NCBI GenBank assembly: GCA_949130485.1
Contig: OX422205.1
Coordinates: 6,680,235-6,744,234, forward strand
DNA from: Agelas oroides
Lineage: Eukaryota > Porifera > Demospongiae > Agelasida > Agelasidae
DNA length: 64,000 nt
Direction of reading: 5' to 3'
Below are positions 14,445 to 64,000 of the stretch, one piece after another (position 1 is the stretch's first letter; each line of letters starts with the position of its first letter). The notes below the pieces were generated by a model that had not been told where the DNA came from, made no database searches, and saw only the letters and a program-made list of their open reading frames with translations. The position numbers and the translations under genes were made by a program.

Positions 14445-17400
14445 TTACCCTTCCTCCTTCTCCGGCTTCCAGCTAGGGTTGAATGTCTTAGGGATGTCCT
14501 GCCAGCACTGGTAGTACTCCTGGTCCAGCCTCTGGCAGCCCATCTCTCCCCACTCTGTCACGGCCATGCTCAGAGAGGACTCAAACATGAAAGCCTGTGT
14601 GCCTTCCAGCTTCACTGGACGCAGGTCTGCCTGGCTTGCCTCTTTGAAGACTTTAGCGTCTGGACCATGTGGAGTCATCATGCTGTGCAGGCTGGCTCCT
14701 CCCGGCTGGAACCCCTTCTTAGCATCATACGCCCCATAGATCAGCCCCATGAATTCACTCATGCAATTCCCTGAGGAGGAAGAGGTGGAGTTACCTAAAA
14801 TCAAATTTTCATGCAACCCTTCAAAGTGATGAAGTAGACTAGGGTTGAGAAGCGCAATGGTTTGATGGAAGACAGACATGCACACATTACCCACCATGAT
14901 GTATGGCCCAATCACTGGATGCCTTGTAATCCTCAAATTAATGCTTGATAGACTGATCGAGTCTACCATTGATGCTACTTACTATGGTACCAGGGTGGTC
15001 TGAAGACTGATTGAGTCTACCATTGATGCTACTTACTATGGTACCAGGGTGGTCTGAAGACTGATTGAGTCTACCATTGATGCTACTTACTATGGTACCA
15101 GGGTGGTCTGAAGACTGATTGAGTCTACCATTGATGCTACTTACTATGGTACCAGGGTGGTCTGAAGACTGATTGAGTCTACCATTGATGCTACTTACTA
15201 TGGTACCAGGGTGGTCTGAAGACTGATTGAGTCTACCATTGATGCTACTTACTATGGTACCAGGGTGGTCTGAAGACTGATTGAGTCTACCATTGATGCT
15301 ACTTACTATGGTACCAGGGTGGTCTGAAGACTGATCGAGTCTACCATTGATGCTACTTACTATGGTACCAGGGTGGTCTGAAGACTGATTGAGTCTACCA
15401 TTGATGCTACTTACTATGGTACCAGGGTGGTCTGAAGACTGATCGAGTCTACCATTGATGCTACTTACTATGGTACCAGGGTGGTCTGAAGACTGATTGA
15501 GTCTACCATTGATGCTACTTACTATGGTACCAGGGTGGTCTGAAGACTGATTGAGTCTACCATTGATGCTACTTACTATGGTACCAGGGTGGTCTGAAGA
15601 CTGATTGAGTCTACCATTGATGCTACTTACTATGGTACCAGGGTGGTCTGAAGACTGATCGAGTCTACCATTGATGCTAGTTACTATGGTACCAGGGTGG
15701 TCTGAAGACTGATTGAGTCTACCATTGATGCTACTTACTATGGTACCAGGGTGGTCTGAAGACTGATTGAGTCTACCATTGATGCTACTTACTATGGTAC
15801 CAGGGTGGTCTGAAGACTGATTGAGTCTACCATTGATGCTACTTACTATGGTACCAGGGTGGTCTGAAGACTGATTGAGTCTACCATTGATGCTACTTAC
15901 TATGGTACCAGGGTGGTCTGAAGACTGATCGAGTCTACCATTGATGCTAGTTACTATGGTACCAGGGTGGTCTGAAGACTGATCGAGTCTACCATTGATG
16001 CTACTTACTATGGTACCAGGGTGGTCTGAAGACTGATTGAGTCTACCATTGATGCTACTTACTATGGTACCAGGGTGGTCTGAAGACTGATCGAGTCTAC
16101 CATTGATGCTAGTTACTATGGTACCAGGGTGGTCTGAAGACTGATTGAGTCTACCATTGATGCTACTTACTATGGTACCAGGGTGGTCTGAAGACTGATC
16201 GAGTCTACCATTGATGCTACTTACTATGGTACCAGGGTGGTCTGAAGACTGATTGAGTCTACCATTGATGCTACTTACTATGGTACCAGGGTGGTCTGAA
16301 GACTGATTGAGTCTACCATTGATGCTACTTACTATGGTACCAGGGTGGTCTGAAGACTGATCGAGTCTACCATTGATGCTACTTACTATGGTACCAGGGT
16401 GGTCTGAAGACTGATTGAGTCTACCATTGATGCTACTTACTATGGTACCAGGGTGGTCTGAAGGTGTGCTCTTGCACACACCAGCGAGGAGGGAAAATGA
16501 CAAAGTCAGCAATGGCCACTCCTGGCGTTGTACTTGGGCAGGTCAACACTGTGAAGATGGAGGGATCCTGCAGAGGGAATGGTCATATTGTAAGAGCGAT
16601 ATGTCACAAACTGATTGAGGCTGGAACAGGTATCCTAGTAATCCTACCGATCTTTGGAAATGGTCATCCAAAACCCAGGATTCTCGCTAGGGCTTTAGCA
16701 GATGGTTGCACATTTTGTTAATTGCAGCACCATTTGGATGCTTGTGGTAAATTTAGGTAAGAGCACCACTTCCTAAACCCTGCCCATAGCAGTTACTATC
16801 CTGGCTTCCCACTTAACATTTCAATAGTGGTGTGTAGAGAGGGCGTTTCACACCTGCCTAGCTATTGTACTATGCACCATCTGGAAGTAGATTTCTAGCG
16901 AGAACCCTGCCAAAACCTATCAGTATTTGCTGCCAGTGTGTGTACAGCAAATTTCTGCACCTTTGCAACGTAGGGCACAACTCTACTAAACCACAATTAG
17001 GTAAAGTTACTGCATAGAGTATGGCTTCACTATTAGAAGCCAGGTAAAAAACACTTAGCTGTGGTTTAGCAAGTGTGGTGCACTTGTTGCAGAGGTGCTG
17101 AAATTTGCTGTATCACTTCACATGACAACGGAAGGAATTGCACCTTACAGCCACTCTAGCAATAGTCTCAAATCCCCCCCAATGAGTAAAGGGTTGACTA
17201 CGGGTTTTCTTGGTTCTGCCGAGTCAGCAGCATCATTTTAAACAAGCAAATGAAATGAGGCTGTTACTAGGGCACAGTCAGCTATGCATCATATTCATGA
17301 GCATGAGAAGTATGGTCACTATGGTAACAAAACCCTGCTGTCCAGTTCATCTGTACGTGCTCCACCCCAAGTGGGAGAAATGAATGTGTGTGTGTGTGTG

Positions 17401-17844: not shown

Positions 17845-20272
17845 GTGGACCGGACCCTGGGCAAAAAGCCTCTTCTATAGTTGAATACAAGTGTGTTGTT
17901 TTTATTTGTAGGGAGTAGGAAAACCTGCTCTACGAGCTACAGGAATAGCAGGACTGTGGACTCCCCATGATGCTGTAGGGTCACAAGGAGGTGCACAGGC
18001 ATGCAACCTTCTACTGCCTATTGCCCTCCCAGACCACAGAACTGTCCTTATCACAACACTCCCTCACCAATGGGTCCCAGGTTGGGCAGCTGGAAGTGGC
18101 CATTAAACACCTCCAGAATGTACCCACGTGAGGGGCCAGACACATTCACCATAAACCTCATACCTTGCTACAGAGGAAGACAGATAAGACCATTCTCCCA
18201 TTTCACACAATGGAAAAAATTAGAAGTGAGGCGAAGACCTGGACTACGAGCACACATACCTGGAGAATGACAATTTCATTTGGTCTCACGTGAAGCTGTC
18301 CAAACTCAGAGAGAATGTGTAGGCTTCCCTCCTGGGGCACTGCAGGAGACAGTTGAACCAGACTGTTTGTCTGCGGCGAGTGTGTGGCTGTCAGTCAACT
18401 CACCGATCAGAAAGTCTCCATCAGAATTGTAGAAACACTTGTCCCCCATGGAGGTGTTGCATGTGTAGATGTGCACAGCAACACCATCGCGTGTCTTTGG
18501 GTTGCCTGCACCACACACAGTTGCCAGACCCTGCGGAGAACAGTGAAGGTTGACACAGCACCTGTCAAAGCTATCAACTACAGTGTCGATACACAAGGTT
18601 AGCCATGTTGAGAGGGACAAGTGAATGATTCAGAAACAGGCACAGAACGTGTTTACCTCCACAAAGTCAGTCTTCTTGTCTGGAAGGACAAAAGGGCTCC
18701 AACGAAGCTGTGCAACACAAGTGAATTGGCTGTGAACTAGTGGTAAACTTAGCCTCACAAACCACACCCTTTGCGGAGGAAGAAAGGGTCTGGTCATGCT
18801 GCAACCATCTAGGTGTCACCAGGGCAGAAACTTGCAGTGACCAATGAGATCCGCGCTCTTCACAGATTGCATCTGTTGTCATGGAGCAGCAATTACGTCA
18901 TGTTGATGTCAGCGTCTTATTCCCTATAACAGCATGGCTCGATAATGTGACAATTTGTCAGCTGTAGTGCAACCAGAGCCTTCCTCCCTGTGAATGGTGT
19001 GGCTTGTGAGACTAGTACAGCCTTCCTCCCTGTGAATGGTGTGGCTTGTGAGACTAGTAAAGCCTTCCTCCCTGCGAATGGTGTGGCTTGTGAGACTAGT
19101 ATAGCCTAACCCTAGTATAGCCTTCCTCCCTGTGAACGGTATGGCTTGTGAGACTAGTATAGCCTAACCCTAGTATAGCCTTCCTCCCTGTGAATGGTGT
19201 GGCTTGTGAGACTAGTATAGCCTTCCTCCCTGTGAATGGTGTGGCTTGTGAGACTAGTAGAGCCTTCCTCCCTGTGAATGGTGTGGCTTGTGAGACTAGT
19301 ATAGCCTTCCTCCCTGTGAATGGTGTGGCTTGTGAGACTAGTATAGCCTAACCCTAGTATAGCCTTCCTCCCTGTGAATGGTGTGGCTTGTGAGACTAGT
19401 ATAGCCTTCCTCCCTGTGAATGGTGTGGCTTGTGAGACTAGTAGAGCCTTCCTCCCTGTGAATGGTGTGGCTTGTGAGACTAGTAGAGCCTTCCTCCCTG
19501 TGAATGGTGTGGCTTGTGAGACTAGTATAGTCTTCCTCCCTGCGAATTGTGTGGCTTGTGAGACTAGTATAGTCTTCCTCCCTGTGAATGGTGTAGCTTG
19601 TGAGACTAGTACAGCCTTCCTCCCTGTGAATGGTGTGGCTTGTGAGACTAGTAAAGCCTTCCTCCCTGCGAATGGTGTGGCTTGTGAGACTAGTATAGTC
19701 TTCCTCCCTGTGAATGGTGTGGCTTGTGAGACTAGTAAAGCCTTCCTCCCTGCGAATGGTGTGGCTTGTGTGACTAGGCTAAACTAGTGCAAACCTGGTT
19801 AGGGTTGGGTGGCCACTTGCTAAAGTTATTGGTGAGATTAGTCTGCTGAGGAAGAGGCTGGAAGGGTAGATGCTTCACGGATGGTTGAATGCGATAGAGC
19901 CAACTGCAGGGAGAGGAGGGAGGGGAGTCACCATAAGCGGGACAGGCAGTGGAGGCAACCCACCTTCTCCTATTTGTCTCTCTAGGGGCGGTGAAGGCAG
20001 AACCTGAGAGCTGCTCGCAGACCAGACCATAGGGACACACCTGGGGATTGTTCTGAGAAGAAGGTCGGCCTTACAAGGTACTTTCCTTCCCCAACTATTT
20101 CTCGCAAGCAGAGGGCGAAAAAATAGTCGGGGAACGAGACCAGAATAGATGATTTGCTACCCCACCCTACCTGCCCCTTTGGCAAAGCATCAGGCAATGC
20201 CTCAGATGAAATTTCGCTGCCAAACCCTGGATGATACTGAAACTGCGTCTGCATCTCGACCCGTGATGGCAA
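14445..20272 (-). CDS. HGD: Homogentisate 1,2-dioxygenase
   Basis: This iron enzyme opens the ring of homogentisate to maleylacetoacetate in tyrosine and phenylalanine breakdown. Eleven exons, right to left (20171-20272, 19964-20040, 19795-19903, 18657-18707, 18404-18530, 18260-18339, 18068-18167, 17591-17718, 17426-17530, 16441-16567, 14445-14770), join in frame to 443 residues; human HGD has 445. Landmarks are [83 protein letters not shown] and [10 protein letters not shown]. The three iron ligands are kept: the His of RPPWYH (human His335), the Glu of MSEFMG (Glu341) and the His of TPHGPD (His371). The start could be the ATG at 20272 or 20254. Introns carry a 54-bp array (14951-16461), a ~120-bp CA tract and a 42-bp array (18974-19779). 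Confidence 0.97.
14951..16461 (-). repeat. 54-bp minisatellite, about 28 units, each carrying the HGD exon-10 end and splice donor
   Basis: The unit, read on the gene strand, contains CTTCAGACCACCCTGGTACC then ATA, identical to the last 23 nt of HGD exon 10, followed by the donor GTAAGT and about 25 nt of intron. The genuine exon end at 16441 is the first member of the array. Units vary mainly at two sites, GATTGAG/GATCGAG and CTTAC/GTTAC. The second changes the donor from GTAAGT to GTAACT in three units (near 15680, 15950 and 16111). Since 54 is divisible by three, one minus-strand phase stays open for over 500 codons. That phase is not the HGD frame, which stops right after the donor. Confidence 0.97.
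16568..17425. other. HGD intron with a foldback element at 16946-17112
   Basis: 16946-17002 (CAGCAAATTTCTGCACCTTT onward) is complementary to 17057-17112 (ending AGGTGCTGAAATTTGCTG), giving a ~167-bp hairpin. 16780-16840 resembles 21690-21720 (both contain ACTTCAATAG-type or ATTTCAATAG-type text before GTAGAGA). A (TG)n tract lies at 17384-17411. No coding exon is seen. Confidence 0.6.
17719..17842. repeat. (TG/CA)n tract replacing the polypyrimidine tract of an HGD intron
   Basis: About 120 bp of TG with a few A interruptions lies directly before the acceptor of HGD exon 8. On the gene strand it reads (CA)n then CTAG|GAGC. It gives spurious TH-repeat frames. Confidence 0.95.
18068..18900. 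other. HGD exon cluster and a decayed TAGTCTCG-family fragment (18760-18900)
   Basis: 18750-18900 contains AAAGGGTCTGGTCATGC and CAATGAGATCCGCG. These resemble the inner part of the element at 13647-13967 (GGGGTCTGGTGTCAC and CAATGAAATCGCAGAG). It reads as an old, broken copy in the fourth-from-start coding intron. Confidence 0.4.
18974..19779. repeat. 42-bp minisatellite in an HGD intron
   Basis: About 19 units of GCCTTCCTCCCTGTGAATGG then TGTGGCTTGTGAGACTAGTATA. Some units are enlarged by CCTAACCCTAGTATAG (near 19107, 19157 and 19347). The unit is 14 codons long, so one plus-strand phase stays open. The repeat lies in the HGD intron between exon 3 (19795-19903) and exon 4 (18657-18707), and its last copy ends 15 bp from exon 3. 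Confidence 0.95.
20085..20145. mobile_element. Partial TAGTCTCG-family hairpin
   Basis: TCCCCAACTATTTCTCGC is followed by GCGAAAAAATAGTCGGGGA and then ACGAGACCA, a hairpin with a family-like right end. It lies in the first HGD intron. The left terminus is not recognisable. Confidence 0.45.
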
Positions 20273-30475: not shown

Positions 30476-31535
30476 AAGCCCACACCTGTGCTCCGTTAGC
30501 AAGAGCTACCACATCATGCCCTACCTCACCAGTTGTCCTGCAAGAGATTCCAGTTCTCACTAGTCATCCTGTAAGAGTTCCCACATCCTACACTACCTCA
30601 CCGGTCGTCCCACAAGAGTTCCCACATCCTACACTACCTCACCGGTCGTCTTACAAGAGTTCCCACATCCTACACTACCTCACCGGTCGTCCGACAAGAG
30701 TTCCCACATCCTACACTACCTCACCCCAGTCATCCTACAAGCGTTCCCACGTCCTACACTACCTCACCAGTCGTCCTACAAGAGCTCCCACATCCTGCAC
30801 TACCTCACCGGTCGTCCTACAAGAGTTACCACATCCTACACCACCTCACCAGTTGTCCTACAAGAGCTCCCACATCCTGCACTACCTCACCGGTCGTCCT
30901 ACAAGAGTTCCCACATCCTACACCACCTCACCAGTCGTCCTACAAGAGTTCCCACGTCCTACACTACCTCGCCAGTCGTCCTACAAGAGTTCCCACATCC
31001 TGCACTACCTCACCGGTTGTCCGACAAGAGCTCCCACATCCTACACTACCTCACCGGTCGTCCTACAAGAGTTCCCACATCCTACACTACCTCACCAGTC
31101 GTCCTACAAGAGTTCCACATCCTACACTACCTTGCTGGTTGAGTCTCACTGTGATCAGAAGAACGTCTGTGATCAAAGAGCTACTGCATTTGTGAACTAA
31201 AGAACTGCTGTGTCTGTGATCATTTTGAAATATGCATGTGTTGCATGCATGCACCCTTTACATTTGGTTGGCCTCCCAGACATGTTTCACTGTGTAATGA
31301 TTTGTCACTGTTACTGCATGTGTGGTTAGTTAAGCATCTTGTTAGTTATGTCCAGACATGTGTGGTTGCTTGGGTAGAAGGTGCTGATGAGGAGGATCTG
31401 AGCTGCTGAGACTTGGGGAGGATCTGAAAGCTTCTGTGACTTGGTGAGTAGTACTCCATTAGCCATGCCGGGTCAGTTTGCCAATTGTTCATCGCTTAGT
31501 CTTTTCTTCCTCAGGTGCATTCCAGATCAGCCCCC
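30380..31535. repeat. 41-bp minisatellite flanked by direct copies of an intron-like segment
   Basis: About sixteen units of GTCGTCCTACAAGAGTTCCC plus ACATCCTACACTACCTCACCG occupy 30480-31135. Left (30385-30475) and right (31441-31530) lie direct repeats of about 90 bp that begin GGTGAGTAGTACTC and end TTCCTCAGGTG. These have donor- and acceptor-like ends, and both are followed by TTCCAGATCA. Confidence 0.85.
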
Positions 31536-38109: not shown

Positions 38110-38654
38110 CTCCTCCCTCCACTTTGTCTCCCTCCTTCCCCTCTTCTCCTTTCCTCTCCTCCCCTCTCTCCCCTCCTCTCCTCTCTCTTCTCCTTTCCTC
38201 TCCTCCCTCCCTTCTCTCCCCTCCTCTCCCCTCCTCTCCTCTCCTCCCCTCCTCTCCTTCCCTCCTAGCTGGACAGTGTGCTGGCAGACAGTGGTCGGCT
38301 GGAGGGCACCCTCTCCTCCCTGGGCAGCGAGAAGGAGCTACTGGCGACCTCCCTGAGACCAGAAGCCAATTACAACAAGCAGCTTGAGGAGGAAAAGGTT
38401 CAAGACTTGATAAATTGCACTTTTTAAGATTGACGGCTCCATTGTAAAGTGTTTGGACTCTTTTGTTTCTCTCTCCTCCTTCCTAACACACACACAGGAG
38501 GCACCTTCATCGCAGCGTCTTGAGGCCTCACAGGCTGAACTGCAGCAACTGTAGGACTCACAAGTGTCGGAGATCAACGCGAAGTGTCGTGAGATAGATG
38601 GTATGAAGTCGCAGCTACAAGAACTCGGGGGCTGGTGGGAGAGAAAGAGACTCT

Positions 38655-39062
38655 AAAATCAGAACTACGGAAGACTAAGGAAGATCTGGGGAGGCTGGCG
38701 GGGGAGAAGGATGCTCTCACACAGGAACTGCAGGACACGAGAGAACAACTGGGGAGGCTGGCGGGGGAGAAAGGAATACTTACACGGGAACTGCAGGAGA
38801 CGAGGGAACAACTGGGGAGGCTGGCCCTTCCCTCGTCTCCGGCAGTTCCCGTGTGTTTCTTTCTCCCCCGCCAGCCTCCCCAGTTGTTCCCTCGTCTCCT
38901 GCAGTTCCCGTGTAAGTTTTCCTTTCTCCCCCGCCAGCCTCCCTAGTTGTTCCCTCGTCTCCTGCAATTCCCGTGTGTTTCTCCCCCAGAGAAGGATACT
39001 CTTGCACAGGAACTATGGGAGACGAGGGAGCAACTGGGAAGAACAAGAGCAGAGAATGAGAG
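38655..39062. repeat. 63-bp coding repeat with an inverted central block
   Basis: Three forward copies of the GGGAGGCTGGCGGGGGAGAA unit (38690-38825) are followed by about two and a half copies on the opposite strand (38826-38985, starting CCCTTCCCTCGTCTCC) and then a forward copy (38986-39062). The block can fold into a long hairpin. Confidence 0.9.
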
Positions 39063-63800: not shown

Positions 63801-64000
63801 CCCCTGGCATTCCCCTGCATTCCCCTGTATTCCCCTAGCACTTTACACCCACTCCAGTAGATTCCCGTTATTGACCTGCATTCCCCTGGCACTTTACACT
63901 CACTGCCATACGTTTCCCAGGCATTCCCGTGCATTCCCCTGCATTCCTATGGCACTTTGCACCCACTACCGTACGTTCCCCTGATATTCCCCTGCATTCC
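54871..64000. repeat. CCCCTGCATT/CCCCTGGCA satellite array, at least 9.1 kb, open at right edge
   Basis: Built from 10-11-bp monomers TTCCCCTGCA, with longer modules CCCCTGGCACTTTGCACCCA then CTCCCATACGTTCCCCTGGC. These assemble into composite units, commonly 55-120 bp with variable numbers of TTCCCCTGCA monomers. Two related modules alternate: TTTGCACCCACTCCCATACG and TATACACCCACTCCCATACG (or TTTACACCCACTCCCTTGCA). Parts are duplicated as longer blocks (61453-61560 recurs at 61584-61690). Frames of up to 363 codons on both strands are artefacts. Confidence 0.97.

Follow-up and report, generated by a model that had tools for sequence, protein, structure and literature searches.

A 54-bp minisatellite repeating an exon end and its 5′ splice donor in the homogentisate 1,2-dioxygenase gene of the sponge Agelas oroides

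The Agelas oroides gene for homogentisate 1,2-dioxygenase (HGD), an enzyme of tyrosine breakdown, raises the question of how an exon is spliced when its end and its 5′ splice donor are followed by 27 further copies of themselves. We analysed the surrounding window, a stretch of 64,000 nucleotides (C23:6680235-6744234) in the 259-Mb assembly of 141 contigs, and asked what the repeated donors would do to the product and how such an array may have arisen.

The HGD gene and its repeated exon end

HGD lies on the minus strand, and its last eight coding exons were annotated. The features used below are as follows (positions in the window).

18707-18657, 18530-18404, 18339-18260 and 18167-18068, minus strand: first to fourth of the last eight HGD coding exons; spliced frame open
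17718-17591 and 17530-17426, minus strand: fifth and sixth of these exons; spliced frame open
16441..16567, minus strand: seventh of these exons, 127 nt; spliced frame open, aligned to 1ey2
14445..14770, minus strand: last HGD coding exon, 326 nt; begins GGAATTGCATG and ends TAA
14771..16440, minus strand: array-bearing HGD intron, 1670 nt, including 27 x 54 = 1458 nt of extra units
14950..16463, minus strand: tandem array, 54 bp x 28 (TRF and unit-by-unit cut)
16435..16440, minus strand: donor 1, GTAAGT; gives full-length HGD in the spliced frame
14977..14982, minus strand: donor 28, GTAAGT, the last; about 212 nt before the acceptor
16111..16116, minus strand: weak donor GTAACT of unit 7 (unit cut; score 3.53 vs 7.29)
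15949..15954, minus strand: weak donor GTAACT of unit 10 (unit cut)
15679..15684, minus strand: weak donor GTAACT of unit 15 (unit cut)
14941..16542, minus strand: 534-aa frame open across the array, in a register other than that of HGD (open reading frame list; Pfam)

When spliced, the eight annotated exons gave an open protein of 347 aa, which is partial, covering the last eight coding exons and excluding the N-terminal portion. Its residues 1-341 aligned with human HGD (1ey2; E 3.5e-158), and Pfam detected HgmA_N (profile positions 91-273 of 273) and HgmA_C (1-153 of 153). The His-Glu-His iron ligands of 1ey2 have aligned counterparts in the product, and these together with the HGD domains identify the gene by alignment as HGD. 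Each of the two exons flanking the array was found in one place in the 259-Mb assembly. The exon at 16567-16441 follows an acceptor reading ...CCCTCTGCAG and ends in TAC CAT A. The ligand numbering used here is presumably that of human HGD. In the alignment the His codon at this exon end falls at position 361 of the 1ey2 chain (471 residues), which would be His335 if, as we infer, the chain carries a 26-residue extension; the other two ligands are borne, according to the alignment, by the last coding exon (14770-14445). The iron ligands are named His335, Glu341 and His371 in PMC6337169.

The array adjoins the exon at 16567-16441 without a gap and consists, in gene orientation, of 28 head-to-tail units spaced at 54 nt (TRF: period 54, 28.0 copies, 98% matches, score 2944). 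It is thus a minisatellite in the usual sense of head-to-tail units of about 10-100 bp, and also a donor-bearing VNTR, unit 1 containing both the exon end and the exon's own donor. The unit consists of the last 23 coding nt of the exon, CTTCAGACCACCCTGGTACCATA, followed by 31 nt that include the donor, GTAAGTAGCATCAATGGTAGACTCAATCAGT; the exonic part encodes F-R-P-P-W-Y-H plus one base of the following codon. The sequence-only reading had described about 28 tandem copies of an exon end and donor inside a dioxygenase gene, with the first 23 nt of each equal to the end of the HGD exon that codes for the iron-ligand histidine, and both points are borne out by TRF, the spliced frame and the alignment to 1ey2. 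The 23 nt of unit 1 close a real HGD exon in an open 347-aa frame, so the possibility raised there that the shared stretch is not exonic does not apply. The interval of 14951..16567 given for the copies has to be divided: the array occupies 14950-16463, and the remainder is the rest of the HGD exon. The exon numbered 10 in that reading is the seventh of the last eight coding exons annotated, which leaves its number provisional.

Variation within the array is confined to two variable sites that define three unit types, with 12 of 1512 cells off consensus and none of them in the exonic 23 nt of the 28 units. Mean pairwise identity among units is 98.8%. The array DNA had a single match in the 259-Mb assembly in a search that skips very common words, and the unit DNA had no match in viral and prokaryote contigs; a protein scan of viral contigs confirmed no relative. 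Without the 27 extra units the intron would measure about 212 nt; the other six HGD introns measured are 126, 64, 92, 349, 60 and 858 nt long.

Donors and the products they predict

According to the sequence-only reading each unit has a full donor, mostly GTAAGT, and the count agrees: 25 of 28 are GTAAGT and three (units 7, 10 and 15) are GTAACT. Upstream, the 25 GTAAGT donors share an identical flank of 23 nt, and downstream one of at least 31 nt. On a human donor weight matrix, the repeated GTAAGT donor scores 7.29, compared with 6.65-9.68 for the six other HGD donors scored, and GTAACT scores 3.53. The window contains 49 GTAAGT sites, compared with an average of 25.8 in 100 shuffles, none of which reached 49, and 25 of the 49 sites are inside the array. 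Internal acceptors were also considered, each unit containing CTTCAG, but were rejected for their poor pyrimidine tract.

Splicing from donor 1 yields CAT A/GG AAT (His-Arg-Asn), the residues also present in human HGD. The in-frame stop of CAT AGT AAG TAG falls among the first nine bases of the intron, and therefore any donor after the first retains it; spliced-frame translation agrees with the earlier claim on this point. All the later donors listed (2-5, 27 and 28 of 28) gave one product of 241 aa ending in FRPPWYHSK, which is predicted to be inactive, lacking the last exon and with it the other two iron ligands. The stop precedes the junction by 46 nt for donor 2 and by at least 100 nt for the later donors listed (3-5, 27 and 28). 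Decay of transcripts with an early stop follows a 50-nt rule, and decay would thus be expected from donor 3 on. Provided that this allele makes the full-length enzyme, the predicted products allow a fair inference that the most upstream donor is strictly chosen.

A coding repeat in the HGD frame is interrupted by a stop already in the intron part of unit 1. The 534-aa frame that does run through the array was considered as a coding array and rejected. Five unrelated Pfam families matched it above cut-off, the best being a Suprabasin repeat at 54 bits, and since these families disagree with one another we take the matches as repeat artefacts. Against the protein database 7997 candidates were scored and none reached E 1, short-read contigs being prone to collapse such arrays. 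The frame is regarded as incidental; its openness is expected for an 18-codon unit in one of several frames.

Relatives, known parallels and genome background

Relatives were compared at the protein level, among the best 120 of 3507 proteins. One of them, P0006, belongs to a close relative; it is a single sequence of 162 aa from a 2030-base contig and is 99% identical over a stretch of 71% of the query that is mostly the last HGD exon. P0006 starts inside the exon corresponding to 16567-16441 in a frame other than that of HGD and extends across the intron as far as the last exon. A hand count on the protein puts its intron at 30 codons plus one base, or 91 nt, and the array is absent. The intron does contain LQTTL, which is the unit start CTTCAGACCACCCTG read in another frame, beginning exactly at a unit boundary 53 nt past the first copy (hand count). 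An exon-derived 5-mer in any frame arose by chance in 54 of 20000 shuffles of the P0006 intron residues. A look for the unit in related species had been proposed; in P0006 the array is missing, but part of the exon end recurs once. This copy is likely the seed of the array, and at the protein level P0006, be it of a relative or of a second haplotype, points to an array-free state; alternatively, an array may have contracted there, or the contig may come from short reads. In P0001, a protein of another relative (90% identity over 100%), the exons are joined at the normal junction, in P0004 the intron is read through at the same HGD position, and P0007 and P0018 share just the intron tail or the last exon. 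With residues 1-70 of P0006 as the query, three of nine candidates were P0006 itself, P0007 and, weakly (E 0.26), P0018.

Arrays of this class are not new. Intron 18 of human ABCA7 contains a 25-bp VNTR extending over the donor of exon 18, with 23.7 copies in the human reference and 12-427 measured in people (PMC5954066). Use of the next unit's donor there leads out of frame to a premature stop. Transcripts that retain one unit are few, about 2% as we read '14 +/- 6 and 2 +/- 1%, respectively', and their share is unaffected by array length, whereas exon 19 skipping rises strongly with VNTR length (PMC5954066). The case is repeated in PMC7999247. The ABCA7 and HGD arrays are alike in starting directly at an exon end, in including its donor and in carrying donors in later units. 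The ABCA7 unit has 25 bp, of which the first two are the GT of the donor, and varies slightly from copy to copy; a coding exon part is not described for it, whereas the 54-bp HGD unit has 23 coding nt. The HGD units are nearly identical, unlike those of ABCA7, and their copy number comes from one assembly. The coding sequence in the unit is the variant feature of the HGD array, and because of it the HGD donors share their upstream context. Competing 5′ splice sites have reportedly also been duplicated experimentally in globin minigenes. These constructs resemble the HGD array in having identical donors in cis before one acceptor, but contain two or a few hand-made copies instead of 28 natural ones.

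Tandem repeats are common in the host genome. In a sample of 20 stretches of 10 kb, TRF repeats covered 22.3% of the sequence and minisatellites (unit of at least 15 bp, at least 4 copies) covered 8.5%, or about 3.7% without the all-satellite stretch L014; 12 of the 20 stretches contained at least one minisatellite. Among 35 other arrays of the sample and the window, five, one of them in the window, had a donor-like consensus scoring at least 7.2 on the human matrix. With minisatellites and donor-like arrays this common, it is not very surprising here to meet one that crosses the end of an exon. Three of the stretches, L014 (1-9993), L017 and L021, are nearly all tandem repeat by TRF (99.9%, 86% and 99.9%, respectively).

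Further arrays were observed in the window itself. A 42-bp-unit minisatellite with higher-order periods of 100 and 126 bp lies at 18977-19777, just upstream of the HGD exon 18707-18657, and a 41-bp x 13.6 array at 30573-31132 (minus strand) bears a donor-like CCG/GTGAGG, with 12 copies scoring at least 7 on the human matrix. Both are ordinary intronic minisatellites whose units are close in length to the HGD unit; overlap with an exon boundary is a property of the 54-bp HGD array and is established for neither of them. Long degenerate satellite-like arrays with 22/42-bp and then 63-bp units extend from 50557 to the right end of the window at 64000. At 38622-38982 (plus strand) a 63-bp (21-aa) coding array for a coiled coil is followed by inverted copies of its unit (38828-38982); from about 38989 the coding units seem to continue. 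The inverted copies are rich in pyrimidines, have GTAAGT at 38912 and end in CTCCCCCAG; this part looks like an intron built from inverted coding repeats.

Origin of the array and competing readings

The array is probably a young minisatellite that was duplicated across the boundary of the next-to-last HGD exon and its intron, that leaves donor 1 mostly in use and that is mainly neutral. A stretch of exon end may have been duplicated about 53-54 nt downstream in an ancestral short intron, leaving the donor flanked by direct repeats. By slippage or by unequal exchange, these repeats would then have gained whole units of exon end and donor, and the presence of 28 near-identical units with two variable sites suggests that this expansion was recent. 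Donor 1, which adjoins the real exon and is transcribed first, would be used in most transcripts, the extra 1458 nt would be removed as intron, and the occasional transcript spliced from a later donor would encode the one common truncated, inactive protein. The short array-free intron of P0006 and the normal junction of P0001 argue for this reading at the protein level, and so, by analogy, does the minor, length-independent retention of single units in ABCA7.

The neighbouring introns are mostly short, and under intron definition donors near the acceptor could be favoured over donor 1. The identical flanks of the 25 GTAAGT donors also count against the neutral reading. If intron-proximal donors were used throughout, the allele would be partly or fully defective and the haplotype would yield little HGD. 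The acceptor is about 212 nt from the last donor and 1670 nt from the first, and four of the six other introns measured do not exceed 126 nt. However, the 347-aa coding part has an uninterrupted frame and is a close match to human HGD, and as the exons are found once in the assembly a loss of function is expected to be costly to the animal; we give this reading a small chance. Neutrality may also fail through copy number, with more donors giving more stopped or mis-spliced transcripts so that array length tunes HGD output. The intact state of 25 of the 28 donors, the stop and common truncated product predicted for later donors and the distance of that stop from the junction (46 nt for donor 2, at least 100 nt for donors 3-5, 27 and 28) all fit such control. 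The length-dependent exon 19 skipping of ABCA7 (PMC5954066) likewise cautions against taking such arrays in introns to be neutral, and since the next HGD exon is the last coding one, similar skipping would cost the protein its C-terminal end. P0006, however, manages without the array, the homogeneity of units is accounted for by youth, and the ABCA7 donor-shift isoform stays constant with length (PMC5954066). We therefore consider tuning by copy number possible but unlikely. A related reading is likewise unlikely: a self-expanding splicing rheostat on a catabolic enzyme, born when a minisatellite took in the exon end, in which 28-fold competition among donors of shared context would let array length set the share of productive HGD mRNA.

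A role of the array as a sink for U1 snRNP or as a splicing enhancer, which the sequence-only reading had offered as an alternative, found no support and is very improbable. It could draw on 25 GTAAGT sites spaced at 54 nt, but P0006 has one donor, donor-like arrays are found elsewhere in the genome too, and the predicted RNA fold of a segment comprising the exon end and some three units was ordinary (z -0.17; equalled by 86 of 200 shuffles). A hairpin with the donor in its loop (UACCAU/AUGGUA) was rejected, the fold of 16302-16520 being no better than shuffles. A scan for bacterial promoters and terminators, uninformative here, found none. We hardly credit, finally, that the array is an assembly artefact or has a wrong copy number. 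The array-free state of P0006 would fit an artefact, but a 1.5-kb array within a large contig (C23; the largest, C1, has 32.7 Mb) suggests a long-read assembly, and the GTAACT units are interspersed in a definite order.

Read as a young and mainly neutral minisatellite, the array indicates that such a repeat is able to capture a catalytic codon together with a splice site without closing the frame of the gene. It also amounts to a natural duplicated-donor experiment in which one acceptor is preceded by 25 nearly identical donors at a fixed distance from each other, and junction counts across it would show how equal donors are ranked by position in an animal with short introns.
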